Origin: Aporhodopirellula aestuarii
GTDB lineage: Bacteria > Planctomycetota > Planctomycetia > Pirellulales > Pirellulaceae
NCBI RefSeq assembly: GCF_023701485.1
Contig: NZ_JAMQBK010000104.1
Location: 1-64,000 of the forward strand
DNA: 64,000 nucleotides
Direction: 5' to 3'
The first letter of the stretch is position 1. Every line of letters starts with the position of its first letter. Shown piece by piece: positions 957-28,670 of this stretch. Position numbers and translations under genes: made by a program. Under the pieces are notes generated by a model, which saw only the letters and a program-made list of their open reading frames with translations, was not told where the DNA came from and ran no database searches.

Positions 957-1646
957 TCAATTCCCCCTCGTTTCGCGATACAGACGAGAACCCGATGGGA
1001 CAGAAAAAACCTCATTTTTTGCGATCCCCCAGGCTCTGTCATCGCGACCACGATCGACGACGTGCGTGCCGGTGAAACGTCCAATCGCGGGCAAGACCAG
1101 CACGCCGCTTCGGTAGTGGAAACACGGTAATGTGCCGATGGAATCTGATACACGGACTGCAGGATGCAAATGCCCACACACCAGCAACGACGCATCATCC
1201 GGAATCGGCTGCGGATGGTGGGTCATCACGACATCACCGATCCGCTCGTACGGATCAATGATTTCGATCGGCCACTCCACCGGGAGTCGACCGATGTGGG
1301 CATCGTGGTTGCCGCGCACAAGTGTCGTCACCAAATCACGATGCCGTGCAAAAAACGATTCGAGAGCAGTAATGACATCACGAGACAATGACGAACGGGC
1401 GTGAAACATGTCACCAAGAATCACGAGCCGACTCGCACGGGTAGACTCGAGCAGGGAATCAATCGCCGCGAGCGTCCCTTTGGAACTGCCCACTGGCACC
1501 GGAATGCCGTGTCGTCGAAACGTCGCCTCCTTGCCAAAATGCGTATCGGCTACGAAGAGAACGTTCTCGTCCGGCCAGTACAGCCCGCCCTGCCAGCAAA
1601 GAGTCAACTCAACTCCGTTTAGGTTTATGTCAACGACTCCAGGCAT
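957..1646 (-). CDS. pdeM: Ligase-associated metallophosphoesterase PdeM
   Basis: Calcineurin-like phosphoesterase, 229 residues from the ATG at 1646. The frame stays open to a TTG at 1763, but the extra 39 residues are not family-like. The metal-site motifs appear in order: DTH at 34-36, GD at 78-79, GNHD at 112-115, HH at 143-144 and GHLH at 158-161. The family called ligase-associated DNA damage response endonuclease PdeM is a manganese-dependent phosphodiesterase/endonuclease encoded with Lhr-type helicase, MBL exonuclease and DNA ligase, exactly the neighbours seen here. It is the last gene of the run, about 130 bases after the helicase. Family call strong; the DNA substrate is inferred from family. 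Confidence 0.9.
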   Translation of the reverse strand: MPGVVDINLNGVELTLCWQGGLYWPDENVLFVADTHFGKEATFRRHGIPVPVGSSKGTLAAIDSLLESTRASRLVILGDMFHARSSLSRDVITALESFFARHRDLVTTLVRGNHDAHIGRLPVEWPIEIIDPYERIGDVVMTHHPQPIPDDASLLVCGHLHPAVRVSDSIGTLPCFHYRSGVLVLPAIGRFTGTHVVDRGRDDRAWGIAKNEVFSVPSGSRLYRETRGN

Positions 1647-1778
1647 TCCATTTACTTCCGTAAGTCGATCAATTCGGATGTGGTTGGAGGACAAAGCGAA
1701 TCTGATTGCCCAGCCGCAACTTTTTGCGTTCCGGCGAAGAGGATCGACCAACCCATTACGCAACTAGCCATCGCTCGC

Positions 1779-4259
1779 CTACTCATCAGCCGCTTTTTCA
1801 AGTTGTGTTTGCATCCGGGCGATCCGTTCACCGAGCGTCTCGCTACTGACGCGTTCGCGCAGTTTATCGACGAGCAAAGGAAAGGCGAGCGGTGTCACCT
1901 TTGGCGGTTCCCGGACCAAAATTTCGCTGTTCTCGATTCGTTCCAGAGCCGCGAACAACCTCGACGACTCCAACTGCAGCTCCAGCACCTCACGTCGAGC
2001 CTGTTCTAACAGCAGATTGTCGGGGTCATATTCCTGAAACACGTCGAAGAACAAGTTACTGCTCGCCTGGACGTGACTGGTACTCTTGCGTTGGCCGGGA
2101 TATCCGGGATGGATTAGCCCTGCCACGCGTGCGATTTGTCGAAACTGCCGTTTGGCCATTTCGGTGGAGTTCATGCTGCTGAGTATGTCACCGAAAAGGT
2201 TCTCCGTCGAAAACACGTTTACATCGACGACTGTCTCCAATTCAACACGGTGCGGTGATTGCAATACGATCCCATAGTCGTTGCACGCCATAGTGAACGT
2301 CGTCTTTTGCAATTTTGAAATCCGATACGCCAAGACTGCCGCCAATCCTTCATGAACCAAACGCCCCTCAAAAGGGAACACGAACAACTGATGCCCGCCT
2401 CGTGTTTCGACACGTTCAATCAGTAATTGGTTGGCACGTGGTAAAGTGCTCCACCGTGATTGGAGTTCGAACACCCCCTCCAAAGCTCGCATCTCACGAC
2501 CGACCAATTGCCCATCGGCGGCTTGCTCGATTTTTAACCGCAACTCGGCGCTCAGTTCGGACGAAAGTGGCATTCGTCCACCCATCCAGCGCGGCACCGA
2601 ATCGGGCTGCCCCTTGGCACGTTTGACGTAAGCGACGTTGTCTTTGACGCGAACGAGTTCAACGAGCTTGCCGGCAAAGAGAAACTTGTCACCACCGTTG
2701 AGTTTTGACAAAAAGCTCTCTTCAACACTACCCAGCGTCGCACCTTTTTGATACTTCACTTTCATCGAAGCGTCGGAAACGATCGTGCCGATATTCATAC
2801 GGTGCATCGTCATCGTCCGTCGCTGGGTGACCACGTATCGATCACCGTCTTGCTCCACGCGATGAAAGTCTGGGTAGGCCGTCAACGAACTGCCGCCATG
2901 GACGACGAAATCGAGAATCCATTTCCATTCCGTGTCGGTCAGCGACTCATACGCTCGGCTCGACCGCACCTCCTCGAGCAGTTCTCCGGATACAAAACCG
3001 CCACCGATCGCGACCGTGACCACATGCTGTGCGAGCACATCGAGCGGCTTGTTCAGCATCGGCCGTGCTTCCAAACACCCCTTGCGAATTGCGTCTTGGG
3101 CAGCGGCGAGTTCGATCAATTCGAGCGCGTTCGTCGGCACAAACGCGAGACGACTTTCTGCATCCGGTTGATGGCCGCTACGACCAGCCCGCTGCAACAA
3201 TCGGGCGGCCCCCTTGGGACTGCCTATTTGCAGAACCAAGTCCACGGCGGTGAAGTCAACGCCGAGGTCGAGACTGCTGGTACAAACAACCGCTCGCAAC
3301 GAACCATCGCGCAGTCCATTTTCCACCCAGCGTCGAACCGAGGTATCGAGTGAACCGTGATGCAAGGCGATCTTTCCCGCCCAATCGGGACGTTGCCGCA
3401 GCAGATGTTGATACCAGAGTTCGGTTTGCGATCGAGTGTTCGCGAACACCAACGCACTGTTGACTTGGTCCAAGCGATCTGCCACTTGAGGGACCATTTT
3501 GGTGCCGATATGCCCTGACCAGGGAAACCGATCGATTCGAGCCGGAATGATCGACTCCAATTTCATACGTTTCTTCTTGTAGCCTTCGATAATCCGCACC
3601 GTTCCGGTCGGATTCACACCCACGAGTGCGTCTTTTGCTTGTTCGAGATTACCGAGCGTAGCCGACAATCCCCAAGTACGAAGCTGCGGATTGAGTCGCC
3701 GCAATCGCGCGAGAGCCAACTCGGTTTGGATGCCACGTTTCGTACCCAGCAACTCGTGCCACTCGTCAACGATGACCGCTTCGACACCAGCGAGTTGCGG
3801 CAACAATCGCTCGTGGGTCAACATCAACGAAAGACTCTCCGGCGTCGTGACCAGGGCCGTAGGCAGTCTTTTCATTTGGCGAGATTTCGCACTCGCTTTG
3901 CTGTCGCCCGTTCGAGACTCCAATTGCCATGGCAACTGCAAAGCATCCAACGGTTCACGCAGCGACGCCTCCGTGTCACCGGCGAGCGCCCGCAACGGGG
4001 TGACCCAAAGCACGCGCACCGACGGCGACCGTTTGGGGTTCCATTTAGTCCGATCGGGGTTTTCCTGTAGCCATCGCAGCAGTGGCCCCATCCAGGCGGC
4101 GAGTGTCTTACCGGTTCCCGTTGCCGAGTGAATCAATCCACTCTGGCCGTCCTGGTAAGCACGCCACACCGATCGCTGAAATCGAAAAGGTTTCCACCCA
4201 ATCGATTCGAAATAGCGATCAACGATCTTCGTTGGCGTTTCGACAGGAAGTTTGTGCAT
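1779..4259 (-). CDS. Ligase-associated Lhr-core DEXH-box helicase
   Basis: Superfamily 2 DNA helicase, 826 residues from the ATG at 4259. A TTG at 4340 overlapping the ligase stop would add 27 Ser/Thr-rich residues and is a possible coupled start. Walker A (ATGTGKT, near residue 46), the DEWH box (about 165-168) and motif VI (QRAGRSGH) are intact. The long C-terminal half matches the winged-helix and Lhr-specific domains of the ligase-associated DEXH helicase family (usual length about 810-840). Known family members are 3'-5' ATP-dependent helicases that act on DNA-DNA or DNA-RNA hybrids and are co-encoded with ligase, exonuclease and PdeM. It follows the ligase gene closely and is presumably co-transcribed. 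Confidence 0.93.
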   Translation of the reverse strand: MHKLPVETPTKIVDRYFESIGWKPFRFQRSVWRAYQDGQSGLIHSATGTGKTLAAWMGPLLRWLQENPDRTKWNPKRSPSVRVLWVTPLRALAGDTEASLREPLDALQLPWQLESRTGDSKASAKSRQMKRLPTALVTTPESLSLMLTHERLLPQLAGVEAVIVDEWHELLGTKRGIQTELALARLRRLNPQLRTWGLSATLGNLEQAKDALVGVNPTGTVRIIEGYKKKRMKLESIIPARIDRFPWSGHIGTKMVPQVADRLDQVNSALVFANTRSQTELWYQHLLRQRPDWAGKIALHHGSLDTSVRRWVENGLRDGSLRAVVCTSSLDLGVDFTAVDLVLQIGSPKGAARLLQRAGRSGHQPDAESRLAFVPTNALELIELAAAQDAIRKGCLEARPMLNKPLDVLAQHVVTVAIGGGFVSGELLEEVRSSRAYESLTDTEWKWILDFVVHGGSSLTAYPDFHRVEQDGDRYVVTQRRTMTMHRMNIGTIVSDASMKVKYQKGATLGSVEESFLSKLNGGDKFLFAGKLVELVRVKDNVAYVKRAKGQPDSVPRWMGGRMPLSSELSAELRLKIEQAADGQLVGREMRALEGVFELQSRWSTLPRANQLLIERVETRGGHQLFVFPFEGRLVHEGLAAVLAYRISKLQKTTFTMACNDYGIVLQSPHRVELETVVDVNVFSTENLFGDILSSMNSTEMAKRQFRQIARVAGLIHPGYPGQRKSTSHVQASSNLFFDVFQEYDPDNLLLEQARREVLELQLESSRLFAALERIENSEILVREPPKVTPLAFPLLVDKLRERVSSETLGERIARMQTQLEKAADE

Positions 4260-4336
4260 GTGATTCGTGTAACGCTTTTTTCGGCTCGTCGACGTGGAGT
4301 CAGTCGCGGAGTCACAACTAGCCAACCCATCTCCAT

Positions 4337-5932
4337 TCAATCATCTAACATTTCCAATAATTCACCGAGCTGGTTGGCGTCTTCAGCTTTCTTGTCATGT
4401 CGCCATCGAAGAATCCGAGGGAACCTGGTCGCCACGCCACTTTTATGCCGCGTTGACCGCTGCAGCCCCTCGAAGGCCAACTCCATCACGAGCGTCGGCG
4501 TGACGCTTCGAACTGGACCGAAAGTGTCTTTGGTGTTTTGCCGTACAAAACGGTCAACTTGCCGGATCTCTTTGTCGTCGAGTCCACTATAGGCCTTGGC
4601 AAACGGAACCAACTGATCACCGTCCCATAACGCGAACGTGTAGTCGGTAAACAAACTGGCTCGTTTCCCGTGACCTTTTTGTGCATAGATCAGAACAGCG
4701 TCGATCGTAAAGGGTTGCACTTTCCACTTCCACCATGTTCCGCGAACCCGTCCAACATCGTAGGCGGCGTCTTTTCGTTTCAACATCAACCCTTCCGCGT
4801 TGACGTCTCGACTGCGTTCACGCACCTCCGCCCATTCATCCCAGGACTCACCCGAAACCAATTCAGTGATTTTCAAATGCGGGTGGTCGCAATCGCCTAA
4901 CAGTTGTTCGAGTTGACCACGCCGCTTCACAAATCTTTGTTGGCGGATATCAACTCCACGATGTTCGAGCAGATCGAAAGCGTGAAAAACGACGGGTACT
5001 TCGCTGAGCAGTTTCTTGCCGATTGTTTTGCGACCGATCCGTCGCTGCAATTGCCCAAACGGCAGAACGTTCCCGTCAGAGGCGACCGCCAGGATTTCGC
5101 CGTCCAAAACGGTTCCGTCCGGAAGATGTTCGGCTGCCGATTCGATCTCTGGCCAACGATTCTCCATCAGCTCTTCACCACGTGACCAAATGAAAGTTTG
5201 CCCCGATCGCCGGATCACTTGTCCGCGAATTCCATCCCACTTCCACTCGGCAACAAACTGTTCGGCATCGCCGATCGGCTGAGGGCCTTCCTCGATGTTA
5301 AGGGGGTGAGCCAAACAGAACGGATACGGCTGACTAGCCAGCGTGTCTTGCACGTCAGGATCAACGAGGCTCGCAAAAAAATCATGCGTTGGAGTCCAGT
5401 TCCCCATCAATCGATGAGATACCACATCAGCAGACACTCCGGATTGTTGAGCAATCGCCCGCGTCACCAGTCGCTTACTAACGCCCACACGAAACGCTCC
5501 CGTGATTAGCTTCATCACAACAAAACGCAGCTTCGCTGGTGTTTCCTTCCAGATTTCGACCACGAATTGTCGCTGAGTCTGTTCATCGAGCGCACGCAAT
5601 GGGAGCAGCCGATGCTCGACCCAGTAACTTAGCGACTCATCCGTTCTGATTTCGCCAGGCGGCACCACCAGAGAAAGCGTTTCGGCCAGATCGCCAACAG
5701 CGTGATAGGATTCGTCTAACAACCACGACGGGATGGATGCTTCTTCGGCCGCCCACGCTCGGAGCAGTTTCGTCGGCACAAGGCGTCGAAGTTTATTGCC
5801 GCACAAAAAGTACGTTGCCCAGGCAGCGTCGAGCGGCGGAGCGGCGACAAAGTACGACGACATCGCTGCAATCTTTTCGTTCGTTTTCGTGGTGGAGTCG
5901 AGTGCGTGATAAAGTTCGGCAAAGCGAATCAT
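4337..5932 (-). CDS. ATP-dependent DNA ligase (repair-cassette type)
   Basis: Nucleotidyltransferase ligase of 531 residues. An N-terminal DNA-binding domain spans about 1-205. The adenylation domain carries motif I KWDG at 231-234, with Lys231 the expected AMP-accepting residue, motif III-like VFHAFDLLEHRG, motif IV-like EGLMLKR and motif V-like WWKWK. A C-terminal OB fold ends the protein. It would seal nicks using ATP, in contrast to the replicative NAD-dependent LigA. The start ATG overlaps the stop of the exonuclease gene by 4 bases (ATGA), which implies translational coupling. It belongs to the ligase clade found beside Lhr-core, Exo and PdeM. Confidence 0.93.
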   Translation of the reverse strand: MIRFAELYHALDSTTKTNEKIAAMSSYFVAAPPLDAAWATYFLCGNKLRRLVPTKLLRAWAAEEASIPSWLLDESYHAVGDLAETLSLVVPPGEIRTDESLSYWVEHRLLPLRALDEQTQRQFVVEIWKETPAKLRFVVMKLITGAFRVGVSKRLVTRAIAQQSGVSADVVSHRLMGNWTPTHDFFASLVDPDVQDTLASQPYPFCLAHPLNIEEGPQPIGDAEQFVAEWKWDGIRGQVIRRSGQTFIWSRGEELMENRWPEIESAAEHLPDGTVLDGEILAVASDGNVLPFGQLQRRIGRKTIGKKLLSEVPVVFHAFDLLEHRGVDIRQQRFVKRRGQLEQLLGDCDHPHLKITELVSGESWDEWAEVRERSRDVNAEGLMLKRKDAAYDVGRVRGTWWKWKVQPFTIDAVLIYAQKGHGKRASLFTDYTFALWDGDQLVPFAKAYSGLDDKEIRQVDRFVRQNTKDTFGPVRSVTPTLVMELAFEGLQRSTRHKSGVATRFPRILRWRHDKKAEDANQLGELLEMLDD

Positions 5933-6966
5933 GATCCTTCGCCCTCGACACCGCTGGCTTGAGCACCGTCTTCATCGTTTTCGCTGCGAGTGCGTGAGTC
6001 GATCACGTGAGCCTCACGGCCGAGCTCTTGGAGATACCGAGCCACGGTCGCGGAATAACCATGGGTGACCCAAACGGTTTCGGGGTCACACAACTCCACT
6101 GCCTTCAGCAATGACGGCCAATCAACGTGATCGCTGACCACGAATCCGCGATCGACAGCTCGGCGGCGTCGGGCCCCCCGAACTGCCATCCAACCACTCG
6201 CCATCGCCGTGCTTGTTCGCCCGAACCGCCGCAACCACGGAGTGCCATTGGCGCTAGGCACGGCGACGACGATACCGCCGGTAAAATCGTGCTTGCGTTC
6301 GAGCGAACCAACGAATGTCGTCTCGGGAAGATCGACGCCAGTCTTGCGATACGCTTCATTCCCTTTCTCGACGGCGCCGTGCGTGTAAATCGGTCCGATG
6401 GAAGGATCGAGACTCGCGAGCAATCGCTGGCTTTTGCCGGCCGCATAACCATACAATACGCAACACTTGCCCTCGTCGCGGCTCTCTCGCCACCAATCGT
6501 TGATCGCATCGGCGGTGGTCTGTTCATCTTCCCAGCGATAAACGGGCAACCCGAACGTGGACTCGGTCACCAACAGGTGACAGGAAAGCGGTTGCCAAGA
6601 TTCACAGGTCGGATCGTTGCCGAGTTTGTAGTCACCAGTCACCACCGCGACCTGGCCGCGATGTTCGAGCCGCACTTGTGCCGACCCCAGCATATGACCG
6701 GCAGGATGAAAACTGACATCAACGCCGTCAATTTTTATCGACTCGCCATAGGGCAGGAACTGAAACTCAGCGTCATGGTTCATCCGCATCCTCAACAGAT
6801 GCTCGCTGCGTTGGGCAGCAAGATAACGCTTGCATCCCCACCTCGCGTGATCGGTGTGCGCATGGGTGACCACCGCACGATCGACCGGAGATCGAGGATC
6901 GATGTAGAAGTCACCCGCGGGACAATAAAGTCCGCGATCGGTCGTTTGGATGATGGAAGAAATCAC
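5929..6966 (-). CDS. Ligase-associated DNA exonuclease (MBL/beta-CASP fold)
   Basis: Metallo-beta-lactamase-fold nuclease of 345 residues, beginning with GTG at 6966. The metal-binding HAHTDH motif sits at residues 35-40, followed by family-typical GHMLGSAQVRL and TGDYKL segments and a C-terminal SDHVDW. The arrangement is that of the SNM1/Artemis-like ligase-associated exonuclease family. It would resect DNA ends before ligation by the downstream enzyme, whose start it overlaps. The gap to the UdgX gene upstream is only 40 bases. The last 20 residues (DEDGAQASGVEGEGS) are an acidic, probably disordered tail. Confidence 0.92.
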   Translation of the reverse strand: MISSIIQTTDRGLYCPAGDFYIDPRSPVDRAVVTHAHTDHARWGCKRYLAAQRSEHLLRMRMNHDAEFQFLPYGESIKIDGVDVSFHPAGHMLGSAQVRLEHRGQVAVVTGDYKLGNDPTCESWQPLSCHLLVTESTFGLPVYRWEDEQTTADAINDWWRESRDEGKCCVLYGYAAGKSQRLLASLDPSIGPIYTHGAVEKGNEAYRKTGVDLPETTFVGSLERKHDFTGGIVVAVPSANGTPWLRRFGRTSTAMASGWMAVRGARRRRAVDRGFVVSDHVDWPSLLKAVELCDPETVWVTHGYSATVARYLQELGREAHVIDSRTRSENDEDGAQASGVEGEGS

Positions 6967-7006
6967 GTACTGGGTAAGTCAGCTTGAGTATCCGAGGGGT
7001 CCGGTG

Positions 7007-8395
7007 TTACTGAGCATTCGCTTTGGCCAAGTCCCCGACGAATTCTTGGAACATTTGCTCTTTTCTCGCTGCATCGGGCATTCGCAAGATAGCGGCCGGG
7101 TGCCACGTCGCGATCGTGCGTTGACACCACTCGGTCGCTTGCACGACACCTCGGCTAGCGGTGATGCGAAAGTCGCGTCCGATTAAGGCCTGGGCAGGCG
7201 TCGCTCCCAAACACACCAGTGTATGAGGTTGAATAGCGGCGAGTTCCGCTTCCAACCACGGGCGACACGCATAGATTTCGCGTGAGTTGGGCTTCTTGTG
7301 CAGTCGTCGCTTCCCTCGCTGGGTGAACTTGAAATGCTTGACCACATTAGTGATGTACACCTCGTCGCGACCAATTTCCAATTCGGCGAATGCGCGATCA
7401 AGCAACTCGCCCGCAGGACCGACGAACGGTTTGCCCGCGATGTCCTCACGGTCACCCGGTTGCTCACCCACCAAAACAATTTTCGCGTCGCGAGGCCCTT
7501 CCCCAAAAACCGCCTGCGTTGCGAATTGATGCAAGTCGCAGGCCTCGCAGCAATTGACCGCCGACGCCAAGGAATCCAAATCCGGTTGAGGCGGAAGAAA
7601 CTTCGTAGCCGTATCCGCGAAACCTTCGTTCCGTTCGATCATGTCAGCGACTCGCTGTGGGGCGTCATCCAACAGGTCTTGAATGATGGAAGCTTCGGGG
7701 AGCGTCTGCCAATGCCGAACCGGCATCTCACGTTTCATCATCGCGACTTTCACGCGAGCCGGGTTAAAGATCGACGCATAATAAGTCTTCCAAAGCGATT
7801 CGAGAGAATCCTCATCCGACACTTCGCTTGCCGGGACGCCTGCACCGTATCGCAACGTTTGTTGATCCCAAACGACAGACTCAATCGGCGTGAAGATCGA
7901 CCAATTCATCGCCTTAAATCGGCGAGCAAAGAACGGCGCGGCAAGGCTTACGATACGATGATCGGGGCGATGCCAAGCGACGTAGGTTTCTTCGAGTGCG
8001 GAGGCAACCCTGCGGAACCTGACGAATGCTTTCATCTTGTGAACGTCCCGCGTCACCGCTTTTTTCATTTGGTGCAACTCGTGGACGTCGTCATCCGTCA
8101 CCATTTGCAGCAACGCCGGCTCGTTGTGCGTCAATCGCCATAATGTTCGGTACAACAGTTCCCATCGGACAGGACTCTGATGGCAGGCGACGGTCTGAGC
8201 GATTTCGAGAAATGATTTTGGAACGGTAACGTTTGCCCGAGCCGTTTTCGACACCGACTCGGTGTCCGCGAACAGTGTCGGTTGTTCATCAAGTGTCGAG
8301 AAATGCACGTCCGAAGGTGCGATGCCGGCACCGAGCAGCCGACGGGCTTCGGTCCGCCATTGTTCATACGTTTCGATCGAGACAAATCGTTCCAT
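7007..8395 (-). CDS. udgX: DUF4130-UdgX fusion, uracil-DNA crosslinking protein
   Basis: A 462-residue two-domain protein from the ATG at 8395 (a TTG at 8416 is less likely). Roughly residues 60-240 form a DUF4130 domain, which elsewhere is a separate protein linked to the radical SAM partner. Residues about 280-455 are a family-4-like uracil-DNA glycosylase with Fe-S cysteines (CEAC, then C-X17-C), motif A GEQPGDREDIAG and a C-terminal HPAAILR. The insertion KRRLHKKP matches the UdgX-specific loop whose His forms a covalent bond to the uracil-site sugar in characterised UdgX. It is expected to bind uracil-DNA irreversibly. It lies directly between the radical SAM gene (30-base gap) and the exonuclease. 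Confidence 0.92.
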   Translation of the reverse strand: MERFVSIETYEQWRTEARRLLGAGIAPSDVHFSTLDEQPTLFADTESVSKTARANVTVPKSFLEIAQTVACHQSPVRWELLYRTLWRLTHNEPALLQMVTDDDVHELHQMKKAVTRDVHKMKAFVRFRRVASALEETYVAWHRPDHRIVSLAAPFFARRFKAMNWSIFTPIESVVWDQQTLRYGAGVPASEVSDEDSLESLWKTYYASIFNPARVKVAMMKREMPVRHWQTLPEASIIQDLLDDAPQRVADMIERNEGFADTATKFLPPQPDLDSLASAVNCCEACDLHQFATQAVFGEGPRDAKIVLVGEQPGDREDIAGKPFVGPAGELLDRAFAELEIGRDEVYITNVVKHFKFTQRGKRRLHKKPNSREIYACRPWLEAELAAIQPHTLVCLGATPAQALIGRDFRITASRGVVQATEWCQRTIATWHPAAILRMPDAARKEQMFQEFVGDLAKANAQ

Positions 8396-8425
8396 GCCTA
8401 TGCTGCAGCGGTCCAACCGACCGTG

Positions 8426-9679
8426 CTATACCTCGCCACTGAGTGCAGAACCGGCGGCATCAAACAGCAGCAACTGCTTGTCTTTCGTTGCGACCTTCGT
8501 TTTGAGATTCAATCGATCCAAATCACGCACGCCCGGATGATGATCCGCGGTCAGCACAAATGCTTTGGTACGATTCCATGCCACACGCAACTTTCGCAAA
8601 TCGGTGGATCGCAGATTGCGATGTTTCCGAAGAGTTAGAATACGTTTCACATTCCGGACACCAATCCCGGGAATCCTTAACAGTTCTTCGTAACTCGCGC
8701 GATTCACATCGACGGGAAAGAAATGACGATTCGCGAGCGCCCACGCCAATTTCGGATCAATTTCCAATGAGAGATTGCAATCGTGTTCGGTGACAATTTC
8801 TTCGGCATCAAAACCATAGAATCTCATCAGCCAATCGGCCTGGTACAAACGATGCTCGCGAATCAGTGGCGGAGACTGACCGGGCAATCGCGCATCCGCA
8901 TGAGGAATCGGACTGTATGCCGAATAGTAAACGCGACGAAGCTTTTGTCCGGAATACAAATCCGAGGCCGTCTTGAGAACGTCGATGTCAGGTGTTTCAG
9001 TCGCACCGACGATCATCTGCGTACTCTGGCCAGCCGGAGCGAACCGAGGTGGTTTGAACCCGGCTTTTTCCTCCTGTTTGGTTTCGTCGATTTTCTCGCG
9101 GATACCGCTCATGGCCGAGACGATCTGTGGCTTCTTTTTCTCGGGAGCGAGCCGAACCAAATCGCCTTCGGTCGGCAACTCGATGTTGACGCTCAAACGG
9201 TCCGCCCACTGTCCCGCCTCTTCGATCAAAGCCTGCGACGCGTTCGGGATCGTTTTCAAATGAATGTAGCCGCCATATCGCTGGTCGGTGCGAAGCCGCT
9301 TGGCGACCAAGATCATCTGCTCCATCGTGTAGTCGGAGTTCTGGATGATCCCGGAACTGAGAAACAACCCTTCGATGTAATTGCGTTTGTAGAACTCCAT
9401 CGTCAGCGAGACGACCTCATCAACGGTGAACCTCGCTCGGGGCGTATCGCTAGACACGCGATTGACACAGTACTGGCAGTCGTAGATGCAGTAATTGGTA
9501 AGCAGAATTTTGAGCAGCGACACGCATCGGCCATCCGGCGTGTAACTGTGGCAGATGCCCATGCCTTCGGTGCTGCCGATTAAGCTGTCAGCACGCGTTT
9601 TTTTGGATCCGCTGCTGGCGCAGGAAGCGTCGTACTTCGCGGCATCGGCCAAAATGGCTAGTTTTTCTCGGACTTCCAT
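8426..9679 (-). CDS. Putative DNA modification/repair radical SAM protein (UDG-linked)
   Basis: Radical SAM protein of 417 residues from the ATG at 9679 (a TTG at 9694 is possible). The cluster motif CIYDCQYC places Cys64, Cys68 and Cys71 as the [4Fe-4S]/SAM ligands. The C-terminus has a helix-hairpin-helix (ELLRIPGIGVRNVKRIL), a DNA-binding element. This matches the radical SAM family that is almost always encoded next to DUF4130 and UdgX proteins. Its substrate is not known; a DNA lesion or crosslink is a reasonable inference from the HhH and the neighbours. It is the first gene of the six-gene repair run. Confidence 0.9.
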   Translation of the reverse strand: MEVREKLAILADAAKYDASCASSGSKKTRADSLIGSTEGMGICHSYTPDGRCVSLLKILLTNYCIYDCQYCVNRVSSDTPRARFTVDEVVSLTMEFYKRNYIEGLFLSSGIIQNSDYTMEQMILVAKRLRTDQRYGGYIHLKTIPNASQALIEEAGQWADRLSVNIELPTEGDLVRLAPEKKKPQIVSAMSGIREKIDETKQEEKAGFKPPRFAPAGQSTQMIVGATETPDIDVLKTASDLYSGQKLRRVYYSAYSPIPHADARLPGQSPPLIREHRLYQADWLMRFYGFDAEEIVTEHDCNLSLEIDPKLAWALANRHFFPVDVNRASYEELLRIPGIGVRNVKRILTLRKHRNLRSTDLRKLRVAWNRTKAFVLTADHHPGVRDLDRLNLKTKVATKDKQLLLFDAAGSALSGEV

Positions 9680-9859
9680 GCATTCGCTTGGCAAGAGTGA
9701 TCGGGAGGTCTACTAACCGCCGAAACGACGCAAGAGCAACCACCAAACCGCGGGCATTCGACACAATCACAGCGACTGGCGAACCAAGCAGGCAAGCATT
9801 TCCCGTTCCCAAAAACCGCAGGTTCGACGATCTGTCGTAACCCACACCGCTGGCGGCAT

Positions 9860-20109: not shown

Positions 20110-21186
20110 CTACCACGTCAAGGAACCAAAGTCCGGATCGATGACACCGAGTCGAGCTTGCGTGACGAGCTGAGCCGTTTCACGGGCCGTAACATAGTGG
20201 TACGCAAATCCGTGGCGTTCGCTGCTCTCTTTCAGCCCGCGATGCATGTTCCTCATCGCGTCCCCGAGCAACACAGCCGAATTGGCTTCTTGGGCACCAT
20301 GGGTGTGCAATTTGACGAAGAGCCAATCGGAACGTCCCTCGATGCACACCCCCGCTCGCAACCAATCATTGATACGGAACGCTGACGGAGGTTGGGATCC
20401 AGAAAGATTGCCGTTCTCCACCTTGGGCTTCCTACGCCAATTTGGACGCGAAATCACGAGCGGACCCTGTATCATCAACAAACTATCTGTTGGTCGATCA
20501 CGATTGATGCACACTGGAACCCCGACGTCATGAGACTTCGCCGTATCAGGATCATCCAGGGCATCGTAGATCGAATTGATCATTCGCGTTTGCGCTGGGT
20601 GAGGAGCAGCTGGCATCGTAAAATCTGCATAACATCCGGTTTCGCGAAGCACCGTCAGTTCATCATTGACGCCGCACCAACAGCCATCGGGATGCGAGTT
20701 ATCGAGTGCCCAATTTCCGTGAATAAATCCATAACGAAGGTCGCCGATTGAGTCCCGCGAGAGTAAACCGTGGTCGCGATTGAGCGTCTCGGTTGCGTTG
20801 AGTAAGAAAGCACGCAAGTTATCACTCGTGTCGTTGTCATGATGCAGATGAATTTCCACATCACCATAGCCTGCTCGGGCTAGACAATTGAGCGGTTCGA
20901 CCAACTGAGGCTGATAGCATTCCATCGGGTAGAAAAACGTGTGCTGCGGCGGTCGACCTCTCGAATCCACTACGCCTTCCACCGAACGAGCGTAACCACT
21001 AGCCCAGCGGGCCACTCGCTCCCGCTTTAAGGACTCCGAATTCGTTTTCCATCCCGGTTCGAAATGATCAGCGACACAAATGAACAAATGCCGAAACCGC
21101 GGGACAGGACGAAGCCCTGCCCAGAATGCGTGCGCAAATGTGGCGCCATGCATACCCTTGATTTTTGGCATCTGAATCGCTGGCAT
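20110..21186 (-). CDS. Polysaccharide deacetylase-like hypothetical protein
   Basis: A 358-residue cytosolic-looking protein, last gene of the long minus-strand polysaccharide operon, 4 bases after the glycosyltransferase. It has a VADHFEP segment, a VEIHLHHDND block and FIHGNWALDNS, with regularly spaced His and Asp residues resembling a NodB-like TIM-barrel deacetylase metal site. A late VKLHTHGAQE block would fit the catalytic His region. The canonical TFDDG motif is not obvious, so deacetylase activity is inferred from overall pattern and from context. Confidence in a real gene is high; in the function, moderate. Confidence 0.75.
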   Translation of the reverse strand: MPAIQMPKIKGMHGATFAHAFWAGLRPVPRFRHLFICVADHFEPGWKTNSESLKRERVARWASGYARSVEGVVDSRGRPPQHTFFYPMECYQPQLVEPLNCLARAGYGDVEIHLHHDNDTSDNLRAFLLNATETLNRDHGLLSRDSIGDLRYGFIHGNWALDNSHPDGCWCGVNDELTVLRETGCYADFTMPAAPHPAQTRMINSIYDALDDPDTAKSHDVGVPVCINRDRPTDSLLMIQGPLVISRPNWRRKPKVENGNLSGSQPPSAFRINDWLRAGVCIEGRSDWLFVKLHTHGAQEANSAVLLGDAMRNMHRGLKESSERHGFAYHYVTARETAQLVTQARLGVIDPDFGSLTW

Positions 21187-21190
21187 TTCG

Positions 21191-22495
21191 CTAGGTCCCG
21201 ACTCGCATCGAATCAGAACCCGTTCTCAAAGCCCCTGGTAGCCAGCGCGCCAGTTTTGGCGGCGGGACTGCTACGGAATCTACCGGAGACATCGCGTCGG
21301 TATGGGAGCCTGATGAAGGTCTTAGTGTGGGAGTCCAAATTGCATTTTGGGGACGCCACACCCACTGCGCAAATCCAGACGCCAATGCCGCGTTCATCAC
21401 AACGAACGACGTTGCGGCACGGGTAATTCGAGCCAAATGATTGTGACTCGATTTGGGCATAATCGCACCAATGATCGCCAATCCGTACGCCGACACCTGC
21501 AACACGGCCACGATGCGATACAACGTTGATTCAATCAAGCACGCATTGGAAATTGCCGCAACTATTAAGAAAAACGGGCTCATCCATCGCAACCACTTAT
21601 GCGAGACAAATGCAAAGGCCTGCTTGGCGTGCCGCCTTTGAAACAGTTCTTTCAGCACAGGCAAGCACTGAATGGCACCCGCACCGATGCGTCGGCGTCG
21701 ACGAAACTCGGCTATCAAACCTTCTCCTCCCACCGCAAAAGCGCGAGCGGACGGATCGAACTTAATTCCCACCGCGTGTCGCAAATGCACCAATGTCGGA
21801 AACACCAAGTCATCGTTGATGACTGCCGACGGAGGCGCCACAAACAACGGAAATCGCATCGCGTACAGTGCGCCACTGGCGCCCAGCATGATGCCGAGTC
21901 GTGCTTCGCAGCTTCGCACTCGCATCTCGCACTTCCAGTACAGCGACTCCGAAGGTCGGCCTTGCGAATCCGTGATGGTGACATGTCCCGTCACCAGACC
22001 AATCGCAGGATCTCGAAAGTTCTCCGCGATTCGCAATATTGCGTCCGACGCAAAGCGAGTAGTGACATCCGTGAATATCAAGAGTTCGTCTGCGGAACGA
22101 TCGCCGAGTTGCTCCACCGCATGAACCAGTGTCATCGCTTTTCCGCGACGCTCCGTAAAACTGAGGCAGGTCACACGGGGGTCATCAATCGAACGCACTA
22201 AATCGACCGTCCTATCGTGACTGCCGTCCGAGGCAACAACGACGCGAATGCGTTCAGCCGGGTAATCGTTGGCTAACACATTTTCAATCCGCTGGATTAC
22301 ATGACGTTCGGAATTATGCGCCGCAATCAGCACCGTAACGCTGGGAAGCTTCTCCCGCCCCACCACCGCCGCGGTCTTCCTGGACGTTTCACCGAACCAG
22401 CTTGCAAAACAGCAAACCAGGAGCGGATATCCGACATAGGTGTAGGCCAACGCCGACAGCGATCCCCAAGCCAACAAGGCAGCTATTGAAAACAT
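21191..22495 (-). CDS. Membrane glycosyltransferase family 2
   Basis: A 434-residue processive-type glycosyltransferase from the ATG at 22495, which overlaps the previous stop by one base. An N-terminal membrane helix (FSIAALLAWGSLSALAYTYVGYPLL) precedes the GT-A domain: TVLIAAHNSERHVIQRIENVL, VASDGSHD, and the acceptor-side DVTTRF motif. RRRRIGAGAIQ resembles the QxxRW-like region. Three or four C-terminal membrane helices follow. The architecture fits cellulose-synthase/hyaluronan-synthase-like enzymes. It is expected at the inner membrane, adding sugars to the growing exopolysaccharide. Confidence 0.9.
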   Translation of the reverse strand: MFSIAALLAWGSLSALAYTYVGYPLLVCCFASWFGETSRKTAAVVGREKLPSVTVLIAAHNSERHVIQRIENVLANDYPAERIRVVVASDGSHDRTVDLVRSIDDPRVTCLSFTERRGKAMTLVHAVEQLGDRSADELLIFTDVTTRFASDAILRIAENFRDPAIGLVTGHVTITDSQGRPSESLYWKCEMRVRSCEARLGIMLGASGALYAMRFPLFVAPPSAVINDDLVFPTLVHLRHAVGIKFDPSARAFAVGGEGLIAEFRRRRRIGAGAIQCLPVLKELFQRRHAKQAFAFVSHKWLRWMSPFFLIVAAISNACLIESTLYRIVAVLQVSAYGLAIIGAIMPKSSHNHLARITRAATSFVVMNAALASGFAQWVWRPQNAIWTPTLRPSSGSHTDAMSPVDSVAVPPPKLARWLPGALRTGSDSMRVGT

Positions 22496-23850
22496 CAGGC
22501 AGCCTTTCGTTGGACGCTTACACAATTTGACAACAATTCAGACAGCCGTTCGGTCAACGCTACCCTAGAAAACCGCAACACATCCTTGTGATTGCTAATG
22601 GGCTCTTCGCATTCGCTTCCACGAATCCGTTTTGTCAACCAATCTGAAATCCCTTGGATGTCGTTGTTACCCAAGCCTCGTACGGAGCTGTACTTGGACA
22701 GCAAGTCTCGCGTCTCACCTTGTGGACAGATCGCGAGTATCGGCCTTTGCAGCGTGAGATACTCGAACAGTTTTGCGGGTACCACCCGCTCCGCACCGGT
22801 GTCACCTGACAACAGTAGCAACAGCCCATCTGCACCAGCGGCTAGTTTCAATGCCTCGTCATGAGGCAGGTAGTCATGCCGAACCACAGAAACCGTCGTG
22901 CGTTCGAGCCGCTTTAGCACCGCATCTTGCTCAGGCGTCCGCCGGCCGGCCAACACCAAATCCAACCGACTGACCAAGTCAGGATCCTGCACGTGCAATC
23001 GAACAATCGCATCAACCAGCGGACTGATGTCAGTCAATCGCCAAAGGGTTCCCGTGTAGACCAACCGAAATCGCTCTGATGCTACTTCCGTTGATGACCC
23101 AACATCGGGGAAATCACTAGGGTCAAAACCGTTGTGAATGCACGAAACCCTTGCACGCGACTGAACTTCCAGGCAATGCTGGCTCAACTCGGCCGCGCTG
23201 GCCTGCGTCGTCGCGACCACCGCATCAGCGCAAGCCAAAACATCCAACATCATCGTGCGTTGATCATTAGCAGCTTTACCGGACTGTTGATGATTATCTA
23301 AATAACGACACGCGAGCATCCACTCATCACGAAAATCAACCACCAGTGGCAGTCCAAACGCACGCTTCAAGCGGCATGCTAATAGGAACGATGAAAACGG
23401 TGGTCCGGTCACAAAAATCGCGTCGTGTGGTTGTTTCCTCAACGCTCCACTGGCCATTCGATATGCCGAACGATTCCATAGCACTTGAGGGTCCGGCTGC
23501 AGCCACGACATCGCTTGCAGCCGTGTCCAGCGTTTCAGCGACCGCCTCCAACTGGATGTTTTCTCTTTGCGATCGCCGGAGTTTGAATCACTGGACACGG
23601 CACCGCCGGACAAGTGTTGTTTCCAACGATAACTAGGTTCCCAAGTGCGGGCTCGGATGATTTCTACCGCAGGGTCGATGTCTCGCACCAGCGTGTCATC
23701 GTGAACCGGGACGGACGGATTGGCGACGGTTAATACAGTCGGTTGCCAGCCAAACTGCGGTAAGTACTTGGTGAACTTCACCGACCGCTGGACACCACCG
23801 CCACCGGTCGGAGGATAGGCATAGCTAATAAACAAGACTCGCCGCATCAT
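22495..23850 (-). CDS. Glycosyltransferase family 4 (GT-B)
   Basis: A 451-residue GT-B enzyme. The N-terminus reads VLFISYAYPPTGGGGVQRSVKFTKYLP, the Gly-rich acceptor loop of GT4 enzymes. The C-terminal donor domain has RLVYTGTLWRLTDISPLVDAI and a LLLLSGDTGAERVVPAKLFEYLTLQRPIL block with the nucleotide-sugar-binding Glu. Sugar specificity cannot be read from sequence. It overlaps both neighbours by 1-4 bases within the polysaccharide operon. Confidence 0.9.
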   Translation of the reverse strand: MMRRVLFISYAYPPTGGGGVQRSVKFTKYLPQFGWQPTVLTVANPSVPVHDDTLVRDIDPAVEIIRARTWEPSYRWKQHLSGGAVSSDSNSGDRKEKTSSWRRSLKRWTRLQAMSWLQPDPQVLWNRSAYRMASGALRKQPHDAIFVTGPPFSSFLLACRLKRAFGLPLVVDFRDEWMLACRYLDNHQQSGKAANDQRTMMLDVLACADAVVATTQASAAELSQHCLEVQSRARVSCIHNGFDPSDFPDVGSSTEVASERFRLVYTGTLWRLTDISPLVDAIVRLHVQDPDLVSRLDLVLAGRRTPEQDAVLKRLERTTVSVVRHDYLPHDEALKLAAGADGLLLLLSGDTGAERVVPAKLFEYLTLQRPILAICPQGETRDLLSKYSSVRGLGNNDIQGISDWLTKRIRGSECEEPISNHKDVLRFSRVALTERLSELLSNCVSVQRKAA

Positions 23851-25091
23851 GACGCCCTCCTGGCGCTGTGGTTCCGTGCTTGTGCGTTGACGCTGATATT
23901 TCCGCTTGCGCGTCGTAACACGCAGCGATTGTCGAGAGTGCGAAGAAACACATCTTCAAGCCCGTTGACCATCTCAGCAGGATCCGTCGGAACGAAGTCG
24001 CGTCGGCGAGGAGACACGTCCCTAGAAACGAGCTCGATCGTTGCCTGTGCTAATTCATCCGCATCGTCATTCTCGACCAAAAAATCGATTCCCATCGTCG
24101 CGATTTCGCTAACCCCGCCTACATTCGTCGCCACAAATGGAGTTCCGCAGGCGATGGATTCGAGCAGCACATTTGGAATGCCCTCGCTATGGCTGGTCAA
24201 AAGAGTTGCATTGGCAGCCCGGTATCGAACCGCCAAATCGGCCTGCGAGAGATTCCCCTCGAAACGAATGCACTCGCACAAGCCACGCTGTCGACATTCC
24301 TGCTCCAGCGACACACGCATCGAGCCATCACCAATTATCAGAATCCGTAGGTTGGATCTCCAATGCTGCGTCAATCGTTCAGCCGCACGCAACAGCATGC
24401 GGGGATTCTTCACCGCCTCAAGTCGTCCGACCCATGCCAAAACGACATTGTCAGCCGATAATCCAGATTCATGACGAGCCTTGATCCGATCGCCCGGTGT
24501 GAAACAATCGAGATCGACACCGCGGTTGACGACGTCGATTTTGTCAGTCGACGTGCCCAAACTCTCCGCTTGCCGGCGCAACTCGCGACTAACGACCACC
24601 ACTCGATCGGCCTCATCCATGACTCGCATGATCGCTTTCCGTCGTCTACTGTTTTGCGTCAGTATTCTGAGGTCCGTTCCGCCCGACATCACCACCGCGG
24701 GAACTCCGAAATGCCTCGCCGACCGTATGGCAGCATCGCCATCGGGATGCAACCAGTATCCGAGTACCACGTCCGGCCGAAAGTCGTTAGGCAATCGCGA
24801 TAAACAGCGACGCATCGACATCCAGTAGAAGTGGTGATACTGGTTTCGAAAAATCTTTGGTGTGTAGTAGAAAACCGGATACTGGGTATCGTTTTCCACC
24901 AATTGGAATTCCTTCTTCCGCTCGAACAGATCCTTTCCGATGTCTTGCCAACACAACTGGGTCCAAGGAACTGGTGCGATCACAGCAACACGATGGTTGC
25001 GACGCAGTGCATCAACCATGATTCGATTGAACGCACCTTGTCGTGGGTGTATCGGCGATGGATAGGTCGACGTTACTACCAAGATTTGCAT
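23847..25091 (-). CDS. Glycosyltransferase family 4 (GT-B)
   Basis: A 414-residue enzyme from ATG 25091, inside the 3' end of the EEP gene (16-base overlap). Features are ILVVTSTYPSPIHPRQGAF at the N-terminus, LAWVGRLEAVKNPRMLLRA at the start of the donor domain, and the E-x7-E block SHSEGIPNVLLESIACGTPFVATNVGG. These are the standard GT4 residues for UDP- or GDP-sugar transfer. It likely adds one residue to the repeat unit made by this locus. Confidence 0.93.
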   Translation of the reverse strand: MQILVVTSTYPSPIHPRQGAFNRIMVDALRRNHRVAVIAPVPWTQLCWQDIGKDLFERKKEFQLVENDTQYPVFYYTPKIFRNQYHHFYWMSMRRCLSRLPNDFRPDVVLGYWLHPDGDAAIRSARHFGVPAVVMSGGTDLRILTQNSRRRKAIMRVMDEADRVVVVSRELRRQAESLGTSTDKIDVVNRGVDLDCFTPGDRIKARHESGLSADNVVLAWVGRLEAVKNPRMLLRAAERLTQHWRSNLRILIIGDGSMRVSLEQECRQRGLCECIRFEGNLSQADLAVRYRAANATLLTSHSEGIPNVLLESIACGTPFVATNVGGVSEIATMGIDFLVENDDADELAQATIELVSRDVSPRRRDFVPTDPAEMVNGLEDVFLRTLDNRCVLRRASGNISVNAQARNHSARRAS

Positions 25092-26092
25092 TGCAACTCC
25101 GCGATAACGGGGCAATGGTCGCCACCTAAGTTGGCACCAACTTGTGCTGACACCACGCGCCAATGCGAATCAGCCAATACATGATCAATACGAATGCCAT
25201 GAAACCGCGTGTATTTGGTGTAGTTAAATCCACTGCCAGCGAGCGACAAAGCGTTTTGATGCGTTTTCCAATGCCGGCGATAAAAGTCGCTATCAACCGG
25301 CACGTTAAAATCACCTGCAATCAAAGTGGACATCCCTGACTCTTCTGCATACCGTTCGCTCGTTTGCACCGTCTGGTCCACGATCACGTTGTATCGTTCA
25401 CTCAATTGCAGAAATGCCTCTTCCGCCCCTCCATCGAATTTACGAGCTCGCTCAAACGCAGGGCGGAATGTTGGAAAGTGAACGCCCACTATCTGGATCC
25501 ACTTTCCAGCTTCCGAGGTTCCAACGCTAGGTTTCCAATGAATATCGCAAGCGACTCCAGCGATCGCACTGAATTTGGACTTAGGCTGTCGCGTCAGCAC
25601 ACGAATCTCACTCAATTCATACGGGCTTCCGATCGCGAGGTTGGCAGCCTGACGATGGTTCCAACCGAGTTCTTCAAAGAGCGGATCAGACACCACGGTT
25701 CGGCACTCTTGCAGCAACACCACGTCAACCTGATGGAACTTCACGAGAGAGATTAACTTCGGACGATTGAGTTCGCCCTCGCCAAGATTGCAGGTCAGCA
25801 TTCGGAACGTCGGCATTGACTCTTCTCGCCGATCCGTACTCAACCCCAGCGTCGCGCCCATAATCGGGATCACGATTACGACGCCATGCACGAAGTACAA
25901 CAGACTGAACTTCGGCGACTTCCAAATCGTGAGCGGCCACAGAACCAACAGCGGCAACGCCACTACCCAACGTGGCGAAAACAAAAACAGAGTGACCGGC
26001 CAGCTGTCCCCAGTGTCGCGAAGCACGATCCCCCAGATCACTAACAACACGACTAGATACAGTCCAACAATAATGCGCAATGCTATTTTCAC
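25076..26092 (-). CDS. Membrane-anchored endonuclease/exonuclease/phosphatase (EEP) family protein
   Basis: A 338-residue protein with three N-terminal membrane helices (IALRIIVGLYLVVLLVIWGIVL; VVALPLLVLWPLTIW; LLYFVHGVVIVIPIMG) followed by an EEP domain. The catalytic set is visible: LTCNLGEGE, VDVVLLQE, AGDFNVPVDS, RIDHVLAD and GGDHCPVIAEL. EEP enzymes cleave phosphodiesters or phosphomonoesters in nucleic acids, inositol phosphates or lipids. Here the membrane anchor and the polysaccharide operon suggest a phosphoester in the polymer or its lipid carrier, which is inference. It overlaps the CapK-like gene by 4 bases. Confidence 0.88.
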   Translation of the reverse strand: MKIALRIIVGLYLVVLLVIWGIVLRDTGDSWPVTLFLFSPRWVVALPLLVLWPLTIWKSPKFSLLYFVHGVVIVIPIMGATLGLSTDRREESMPTFRMLTCNLGEGELNRPKLISLVKFHQVDVVLLQECRTVVSDPLFEELGWNHRQAANLAIGSPYELSEIRVLTRQPKSKFSAIAGVACDIHWKPSVGTSEAGKWIQIVGVHFPTFRPAFERARKFDGGAEEAFLQLSERYNVIVDQTVQTSERYAEESGMSTLIAGDFNVPVDSDFYRRHWKTHQNALSLAGSGFNYTKYTRFHGIRIDHVLADSHWRVVSAQVGANLGGDHCPVIAELQCKSW

Positions 26093-27513
26093 AGGACCGA
26101 CTCCACTTTCAGAGCGTCCTGGGGCGATGCGTCGCCGAGATAGCTGACCACGACCCGGTGTTTCCCATGCGAGGTCAATGGGATCGATTGCACTTCGTCG
26201 ATCCGCAATGTTGTCGTGTCTCCGACGCCTTCTCGAACCAGCGTCCGCAATCGCTTGGCCTGCTCAGCCGACCAACTGCCATCGACCACCACCTTCACCA
26301 CAACTTCTTCAGCGGTCGGTTGCACCACTTGGAATTGACGTACAGCCGCAAAGTCCTTCATCAGATGTGGGAAGTACTCACCCGGTAGATGTCGACCATC
26401 GGCGGTGTGCAACATGTCCAATCGGCGACCGACCACCTTCCGCAACATCGGTAACCCTCGCCCACACGGGCAATTCACCGTGCCAGCGACGGCCCGATCA
26501 CCGATCAAGTAACGAACAAACGGCGTCGACCGATTCCACAAGTCCGTGACGGCGATGTTTCCTTCTTCGCCGCTCGGAGTTGGTTGCCCATCTTCGTTAA
26601 CGACTTCAACAATCAGGTTTTCGCTGGTCAGATGCAGTCCAGCGTGTTCTGGGCATTCTGCACCAATCAACGTGAACTCACGCGACCCGTAGGTTTCAAA
26701 GACGGGCGAGTGGAACGCCGCTTCGATGCGTTCGCGTTGGTGATCGTATAGTTTTTCTGCCCCCGTAATAATCGCTCGTGGCTGATGGACCTGGACACCT
26801 CGTTCCAAAATAATCCGCGACAACATATCGATGGGATTGGTGTAGGCAACAATCACCTGTGGACGTAAGCGATTGATTTGATGGATAAACCCTTCCGCGT
26901 TGGAATCGCTCAGATGGAAACTATTGAGCATGCAACGGCGATACAACCAGCGAGAATAGACATACTCCTTCGCCGCACGCAAACGGCTTTGATCGGCGAA
27001 TGCTCCGCCCCAAATATGAACCTGCTTCGTCCCCACCCCTCCGCCAGCCATTGCATATCCACGAAGTGCCGCGGCAACTCGTCTATCATTCGCTTCGGTA
27101 TCGATCGTAAAACGAAGTGGTGTCCCGCTAGAACCGCCAGTCGATTTTGAAACGCTGGCCTGACCGGTTATCTCGGTGCGAATGCGCGCCGAATGGTCAC
27201 GCATGGTTTCGCGAGTGGTCAGCGGCAACTTCGGAAGATCACTGGCACTCTGTATATCCGCTGGCCGCACGCCCGCATCGGACCACAGATCGCGATAGTA
27301 AAGCGAATGTTGGGAACAGAAATCAATCAACGATACAAGTCGAGTCCTCTGTAGGTGCTCGATTTCAGCTTCTGACCACCACTGAGATCGTTGAAGTTCG
27401 TCAGCAAACTGAAACGTCTTTCGACGTTTAAAAACCGTTTCAAATCCTGGCAACACGATGCCACGATAAAGACGTTCACTCCAAGTCGAGCTAAATTCAA
27501 TTGGCTTGCTCAT
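26089..27513 (-). CDS. CapK/phenylacetate-CoA ligase-like adenylate-forming enzyme
   Basis: A 474-residue member of the AMP-forming acyl-CoA synthetase superfamily, capsule (CapK) branch. The phosphate loop SKSTGGSSGTPL lies near residues 121-132, the YGSREF motif follows, and WNRSTPFVRYLIGDRA with VVGRRLDML gives the adenylation and hinge regions. A thiolation partner is absent. In capsule loci such proteins are thought to activate a carboxylic acid for attachment to the glycan; the substrate is unknown. It overlaps both neighbours by ATGA. Confidence 0.88.
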   Translation of the reverse strand: MSKPIEFSSTWSERLYRGIVLPGFETVFKRRKTFQFADELQRSQWWSEAEIEHLQRTRLVSLIDFCSQHSLYYRDLWSDAGVRPADIQSASDLPKLPLTTRETMRDHSARIRTEITGQASVSKSTGGSSGTPLRFTIDTEANDRRVAAALRGYAMAGGGVGTKQVHIWGGAFADQSRLRAAKEYVYSRWLYRRCMLNSFHLSDSNAEGFIHQINRLRPQVIVAYTNPIDMLSRIILERGVQVHQPRAIITGAEKLYDHQRERIEAAFHSPVFETYGSREFTLIGAECPEHAGLHLTSENLIVEVVNEDGQPTPSGEEGNIAVTDLWNRSTPFVRYLIGDRAVAGTVNCPCGRGLPMLRKVVGRRLDMLHTADGRHLPGEYFPHLMKDFAAVRQFQVVQPTAEEVVVKVVVDGSWSAEQAKRLRTLVREGVGDTTTLRIDEVQSIPLTSHGKHRVVVSYLGDASPQDALKVESVL

Positions 27514-28580: not shown

Positions 28581-28670
28581 GCTGGACAACGTGGCGTTAC
28601 CACGTCGTCGATTTTTGGTAGAGGAAAGCGTTTGGGTAGACACGATTTGTTTCAAACTAGCTAACGGGTT

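Follow-up and report, generated by a model that had tools for sequence, protein, structure and literature searches.

Two previously described gene sets, the ligase-associated DNA damage response cassette (TIGR04120-TIGR04123) and the uracil-DNA glycosylase (UDG)-linked radical SAM cassette (TIGR03914-TIGR03916), are the closest known counterparts of a six-gene run in a 64,000-nucleotide (nt) stretch of the Aporhodopirellula aestuarii genome (contig NZ_JAMQBK010000104.1, positions 1 to 64,000; hereafter the window). We take the radical SAM family of the second set, TIGR03916, to be the same as COG4277. The radical SAM-UdgX pair of the window can be likened to the COG1573-COG4277 pair of the SOS regulon (PMC8565304). 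The biochemistry of the ligase-associated cassette comes from Pseudomonas putida enzymes (cited in PMC8301817), and its genes are annotated in the same order on Comamonas and Ideonella plasmids. The window holds the same four genes, adjacent or overlapping, and shares with the UDG-linked cassette a radical SAM gene followed by a DUF4130-UdgX fusion. It differs from the former in that the four genes come directly after the radical SAM-UdgX pair and in the same direction, and from the latter in that the ligase cassette lies downstream and no recognisable LexA-type palindrome lies upstream. A literature search, which covered few subscription papers, found no paper on the joined cassette, and no lesion repaired by either cassette was found in the literature searched.

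Make-up of the six-gene run

All six genes lie on the minus strand and score over the NCBIfam cut-offs of their families (bits/cut-off in brackets). In order of transcription, they encode a radical SAM protein (9679-8426; TIGR03916, rSAM_link_UDG, 584.9/343.5), a DUF4130-UdgX fusion (8395-7007; TIGR03915, 216.8/112.25; TIGR03914, 271.1/189.95), a ligase-associated metallo-beta-lactamase (MBL) exonuclease with a GTG start (6966-5929; TIGR04122, 460.4/325), an ATP-dependent DNA ligase (5932-4337; TIGR04120, 639.3/400), a ligase-associated Lhr-core DEXH helicase starting at TTG 4340 or ATG 4259 (4340-1779; TIGR04121, 1092/850) and PdeM, a ligase-associated metallophosphoesterase endonuclease starting at TTG 1763 or ATG 1646 (1763-957; TIGR04123, 194.6/150), the latter ATG being six residues ahead of the start of the family match. 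The family models confirmed the gene order and the make-up from two known cassettes that the initial annotation had proposed, with TIGR03916 adjoining TIGR03915/TIGR03914 and all four ligase-associated genes adjacent. Its description of the junctions as ATGA overlaps or short gaps held for the gaps of 30 nt (radical SAM/DUF4130-UdgX), 40 nt (DUF4130-UdgX/exonuclease) and 15 nt (helicase/PdeM; 132 nt with the ATG start of PdeM) and for the 4-nt ATGA overlap between exonuclease and ligase, but the 4-nt overlap between ligase and helicase is TTGA (77 nt separate the two with the ATG start of the helicase). The radical SAM protein carries a CX3CX2C motif and a helix-hairpin-helix (HHH) region (Pfam HHH_3, slightly below its cut-off), and its nearest named relatives are from Neorhodopirellula pilleata and Stieleria sedimenti (82% identity each). 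The 9.07-Mb genome has one copy each of DUF4130 and the ligase.

The upstream neighbour gene ends at 9860, and the 180-nt intergenic stretch before the radical SAM start (9680-9859, minus strand) is the likeliest promoter site of the run. Terminator-like sites between 600 and 10000 were at chance level (11 compared to 10.8 in shuffles). With its short gaps and no excess of terminators, the run is predicted to form a single transcript that would begin upstream of the radical SAM gene.

Co-occurrence and neighbourhood of the two cassettes

Co-occurrence was counted when TIGR03916 and TIGR04120 were both over their cut-offs in the same genome, and was assessed by Fisher p values. The ligase was present in 7 of 9 radical SAM genomes compared to 11 of 285 others in the phylum sample (n = 294; p = 3e-8), and in 20 of 24 compared to 59 of 224 in the sample of the window's class (n = 248; p = 6e-8); these two samples overlap, and relatedness is allowed for only in the count of the class by genus, which gave 16/20 with radical SAM and 38/114 without (p = 1e-4). 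Among Pseudomonadaceae (n = 158), 59 of the 71 radical SAM genomes had the ligase, compared to 8 of 87 others (p = 2e-22). The radical SAM gene occurred in 17 of 241 alphaproteobacterial genomes, 14 of which had the ligase, compared to 17 of 62 genomes drawn from the 224 radical SAM negatives (p = 6e-5), while in the Gammaproteobacteria class sample it occurred in only 3 of 192 genomes, centre genome included, too few to use. From the best 80 of 583 loci across several phyla, 50 radical SAM genomes were picked by hand, with mostly short contigs left out, and 37 of them have the ligase (36 over the cut-off). A second group of TIGR03916-like proteins (L011-L030), from other families of the phylum, scored lower (154-358 bits, just one over the cut-off) and is perhaps a paralogous family.

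Physical linkage was assessed as had been suggested in the initial annotation, by comparing neighbourhoods within 10 kb with random placement. Of the 20 class genomes that have both the radical SAM and the ligase gene, 8 have them within this distance, where 0.05 are expected; for Pseudomonadaceae the count is 5 of 59, with 0.24 expected for an assumed genome size of 5 Mb. The adjacency is thus far from private to this strain, recurring in 13 genomes across the class and Pseudomonadaceae samples, in Neorhodopirellula pilleata and on two Phaeobacter plasmids. These other loci keep the two genes within 10 kb of each other and differ in order, orientation and completeness, falling into three arrangements (genomes and loci carry G and L numbers). 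The order and direction of the window recur in G393, and in N. pilleata without an exonuclease gene in the run; a divergent arrangement is found in G270, G465 and G491 (308, 285 and 91 nt between matches) and, more loosely, in G359 and G411 (1.7 kb); and the ligase cassette comes first, in the same direction, in G313 (2.1-kb gap) and in five Pseudomonadaceae (G547, G775, G809, G833 and G841). In five loci, the distances between the matches of the two cassettes were 14 (L222), 43 (L072), 91 (L223), 285 (L227) and 308 nt (L052). On the Phaeobacter plasmids, exonuclease-ligase and radical SAM-UdgX are divergent and 3-4 kb apart, with two or three genes between them; each gene matches 58 Phaeobacter records, which presumably reflect one event. 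As a control, the neighbours of 12 unjoined planctomycete radical SAM loci were surveyed (75 of 76 frames, an antisense frame in L237 being left out; 149 families), and the 25 commonest included no repair family.

Trees of both genes, made by a quick method with SH-aLRT support only and with rows lacking any ligase scored as unlinked, placed the joined Pseudomonadaceae copies apart from the joined planctomycete copies. The joined Pseudomonadaceae ligases group with the unjoined Pseudomonadaceae G867 and then with G042 (98 support), which belongs to the window's phylum and is likewise unjoined; the ligase cassette may thus have been transferred. Changes between linked and unlinked states numbered 9 on the radical SAM tree and 8 on the ligase tree, where the three arrangements need 3, and the least number of changes forced by starred branches is 1 for each arrangement. 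These trees give good support to two independent joinings and make more than two likely, although fewer origins within planctomycetes are compatible with them as well. A single ancestral operon that was broken up everywhere is disfavoured by the differing arrangements and the 9 and 8 changes. Overall, the association of the two cassettes is real and recurrent, and the functional link between them that the initial annotation had suggested gains support from both co-occurrence and neighbourhood. Since the cassettes share genomes and have been joined repeatedly in distant bacteria, both probably deal with the same kind of damage.

Some loci showed features of their own. In the N. pilleata locus (L072, 12669-12713), UdgX directly abuts the ligase and no exonuclease match was found within the 21-kb locus; the genome has a second ligase on a different contig. 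In Luteimonas wenzhouensis (L092, 9444-9956), whose genome has no ligase match, a fragment matching an Lhr-type helicase is divergent from the radical SAM gene and is a possible relic of a joined locus. An Lhr-core helicase is likewise divergent from the radical SAM gene in Planctomycetaceae UBA11363 (L074, 725-3172), which has the ligase in the genome, not in the locus.

Clamp-like tail and LexA-type boxes of the radical SAM gene

The window's radical SAM protein ends in a QLLLF tail (Q at position 1, hydrophobic residues at 4 and 5), which matches the published beta-clamp binding consensus Q-L-x-L-F, usually C-terminal according to PMC4549789. The comparison covered those radical SAM proteins whose frame reaches a stop codon within the locus, 106 in all (105 distinct proteins, L078 and L235 being the same locus). 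Q[LMIV]x[LM]F was found within the last 60 residues of 47/106, and a wider clamp-like pattern within the last 45 residues of 103/106 (102/105 distinct proteins), compared to 8.3 in shuffled sequences (maximum 15); with the window and one further locus added, the wider pattern was present in 104/108. In the other products it was near chance (UdgX 5/102, 2.7 shuffled; ligase 2/25, 0.5 shuffled) or absent (exonuclease 0/23, helicase 0/20, PdeM 0/15). Q402 of the radical SAM protein is nearly invariant, and AlphaFold gave the tail, which is probably flexible, low confidence. The conserved motif suggests that the tail likely binds the beta clamp (DnaN). A literature search, again covering few subscription papers, found no paper on a clamp motif in the TIGR03916 family. 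An N-terminal LF of UdgX was rejected as a clamp motif, as no more than 20 of 83 rows have Q three residues ahead of its conserved L.

Regulatory sites were sought upstream of both cassettes. We take GTTCN7GTTC to be the alphaproteobacterial LexA box and CTGT-N8-ACAG to be the gamma LexA box. Of 29 Alphaproteobacteria, 27 had a box of the first type before the radical SAM gene (0.24 in shuffled sequences; 0/29 inside the gene), and so did both Phaeobacter copies; it preceded the exonuclease gene in 0 of 12 (ten Alphaproteobacteria and the two Phaeobacter). A box of the second type was found 30-37 nt before the radical SAM match in 12 of 13 Pseudomonadaceae loci (0.18 shuffled); all five joined Pseudomonadaceae have it, between pdeM and the radical SAM gene, and none of their five exonuclease upstreams does. 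These boxes agree with the SOS regulation reported or predicted for the UDG two-gene operon in Bacteroidetes, Verrucomicrobia and Alphaproteobacteria (PMC8565304). On the planctomycete side, known LexA types were only scattered among 44 upstream regions (GAACN4GTTC in 1, GAACN7GTTC in 1, CTGN10CAG in 5), and the window had one loose CTG-N10-CAG match upstream of its radical SAM gene, a pattern shared by 4 of 43 other upstream regions. A motif search in planctomycetes gave a GTGAACA-N2-TGTTCAC palindrome scoring above shuffles, which with up to 4 mismatches occurred in 8 of 29 radical SAM upstreams (4.9% shuffled) and before 3 of 18 exonuclease genes. It is weak and patchy, and it was not seen in the window, whose 180-nt upstream stretch matches the GTGAACANNTGTTCAC palindrome no better than shuffles do (6 mismatches at the best site); the group's own LexA box is not established.

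Probable partnership of two modules and its alternatives

We consider it rather probable that the run consists of two separable repair modules that are functional partners, the radical SAM-DUF4130 pair working on the clamp and the ligase cassette trimming and sealing. The first module, radical SAM plus DUF4130 (fused to UdgX in the window), would act on a damaged base or adduct, with the QLxLF-type motif at its C-terminus tying it to the beta clamp where DNA is replicated or repaired. The second, comprising the exonuclease, the helicase, the single-stranded DNA endonuclease and the ligase, would unwind the strand at the lesion or its product, trim it and seal it. Gene identities, their order, the co-occurrence, the recurring neighbourhood and the conservation of the motif are observations; the joint mechanism, including its chemistry and order of action, is our inference. 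Several observations weigh against it. The two cassettes are non-adjacent in 12 of 20 class genomes with both (including G475, G301 and G379, where the radical SAM gene is about 5 kb or less from a contig end and adjacency is possible) and in 54 of 59 Pseudomonadaceae with both (contig ends not checked), and no pair lay within 10 kb in the 14 sampled Alphaproteobacteria with both or in the five phylum genomes outside the class. Some joined loci are incomplete, with no helicase or PdeM match in L052 and L227, no PdeM in L225 and no exonuclease in L072. In Proteobacteria the radical SAM gene, not the exonuclease gene, has its own LexA-type box even within the joined Pseudomonas runs, which, like the many non-adjacent pairs, speaks against one obligatory unit, and the radical SAM pair would therefore be inducible alone. 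Clamp binding is proposed from a motif match, the wide pattern was devised after inspecting the tails, and the stricter form Q[LM]x[LM]F occurs in 48 of 108 radical SAM proteins and also in 2 of 25 ligases. Part of the co-occurrence may also stem from common ancestry, life style and genome size.

More tentatively, the run may represent a new excision-repair pathway, in which a clamp-tethered radical SAM enzyme, together with DUF4130, would convert some replication-blocking lesion into a form that the helicase-nuclease-ligase cassette excises before resealing the strand; UdgX, where present, would protect or mark the abasic intermediate. An explanation that we find doubtful is that the cassettes share only a life style, that of large environmental genomes which hold many repair cassettes under ultraviolet (UV) and chemical stress, with their neighbourhood arising from co-transfer or repair islands and no joint reaction. 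The presence of both genes on plasmids (158 records at E 1e-5, 78 at E 1e-60), the different LexA-type boxes of the modules and the majority of pairs that are not adjacent fit this explanation, but the tight abutment in five loci (14-308 nt between matches) across three arrangements, the large excess of neighbouring over random placement and the lack of repair families among the 25 commonest neighbours of the 12 unjoined loci do not.

Another explanation, raised by the initial annotation, is that UdgX forms a covalent adduct with DNA at an abasic site, which the ligase cassette then takes off before closing the strand again. The window's UdgX half is close to solved UdgX (~50% identity) and has the motifs of the cross-linking subclass (motif A GEQPG, R-loop KRRLH, motif B HPAAILR), of which GEQPG, the R-loop histidine and motif B are tied to covalent bonding in M. 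smegmatis UdgX (PMC10359453). A motif-competent UdgX (GEQPG plus loop histidine) is found in 8 of 14 joined loci (the window, L222, L072, L052, L223, L225, L226 and L227). The remaining six lack a competent domain: the planctomycete G313 (L224) has a UDG domain with an altered motif A and without the catalytic loop histidine, and the five Pseudomonadaceae have DUF4130 without a UDG domain, as judged from four full frames in which TIGR03915 alone matched and from the length of the fifth (L231, 265 residues). Gaps of these Pseudomonadaceae at UdgX in our alignment only mirror the match range supplied, and no second UdgX match was found within the five loci, the rest of those genomes not being searched for a stand-alone UdgX. 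The unjoined planctomycetes G301, G302 and G366 have a degenerate UdgX and still retain the ligase. With 6 of 14 joined loci lacking a competent UdgX, adduct chemistry cannot explain the pairing in general, and we regard the adduct explanation as unlikely. UdgX is disfavoured as the link between the modules and appears to be an optional add-on; the loci agree better with the other option of the initial annotation, in which the radical SAM enzyme deals with the lesion. The planctomycete UdgX domains of L235 (= L078), L236 and L237 keep their four cysteines and have lost motif A and the loop histidine.

The constant part of the joined loci is radical SAM plus DUF4130. The near-invariant residues of DUF4130 (D101, H119, R126, R159, Y205, N211, R214 and E234) suggest an enzyme, and the DUF4130 half had no match among the sequence matches or the 50 fold rows listed. 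The radical SAM profile had no sequence match to a solved structure at E <= 0.001, and in Foldseek its model was most similar to HydE and biotin synthase over ~240 residues (50 of 1305 rows listed). The idea of a photoproduct reversal enzyme resembling spore photoproduct lyase, with the ligase cassette as a back-up for photoproducts that this enzyme fails to reverse, is most improbable, as that lyase appears neither by sequence among solved structures nor in the 50 fold rows listed; these name HydE and biotin synthase besides further members of the radical SAM superfamily.

Outside the run, a minus-strand gene 363 nt downstream of PdeM (114-593) encodes a 159-residue Lys/Ala/Pro-rich protein of histone H1-like appearance, with no Pfam or NCBIfam match at E 0.001. 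Ordinary genes at 20110-28655, 40355-42559, 46646-48334 and 58266-62377 include a glycosyltransferase cluster, phosphate acetyltransferase, flagellar FlgK and a molybdopterin oxidoreductase with a ferredoxin-DmsC-like partner. PADLOC matched only the helicase of the window, mostly as other helicases by name (25 of 42 matches listed).

Both cassettes are widespread, and their association argues for studying them together, with joined and unjoined lineages serving as natural comparisons. The clamp-like tail offers a direct and cheap handle on where the radical SAM enzyme works, and the core of interest moves from UdgX to the radical SAM-DUF4130 pair.
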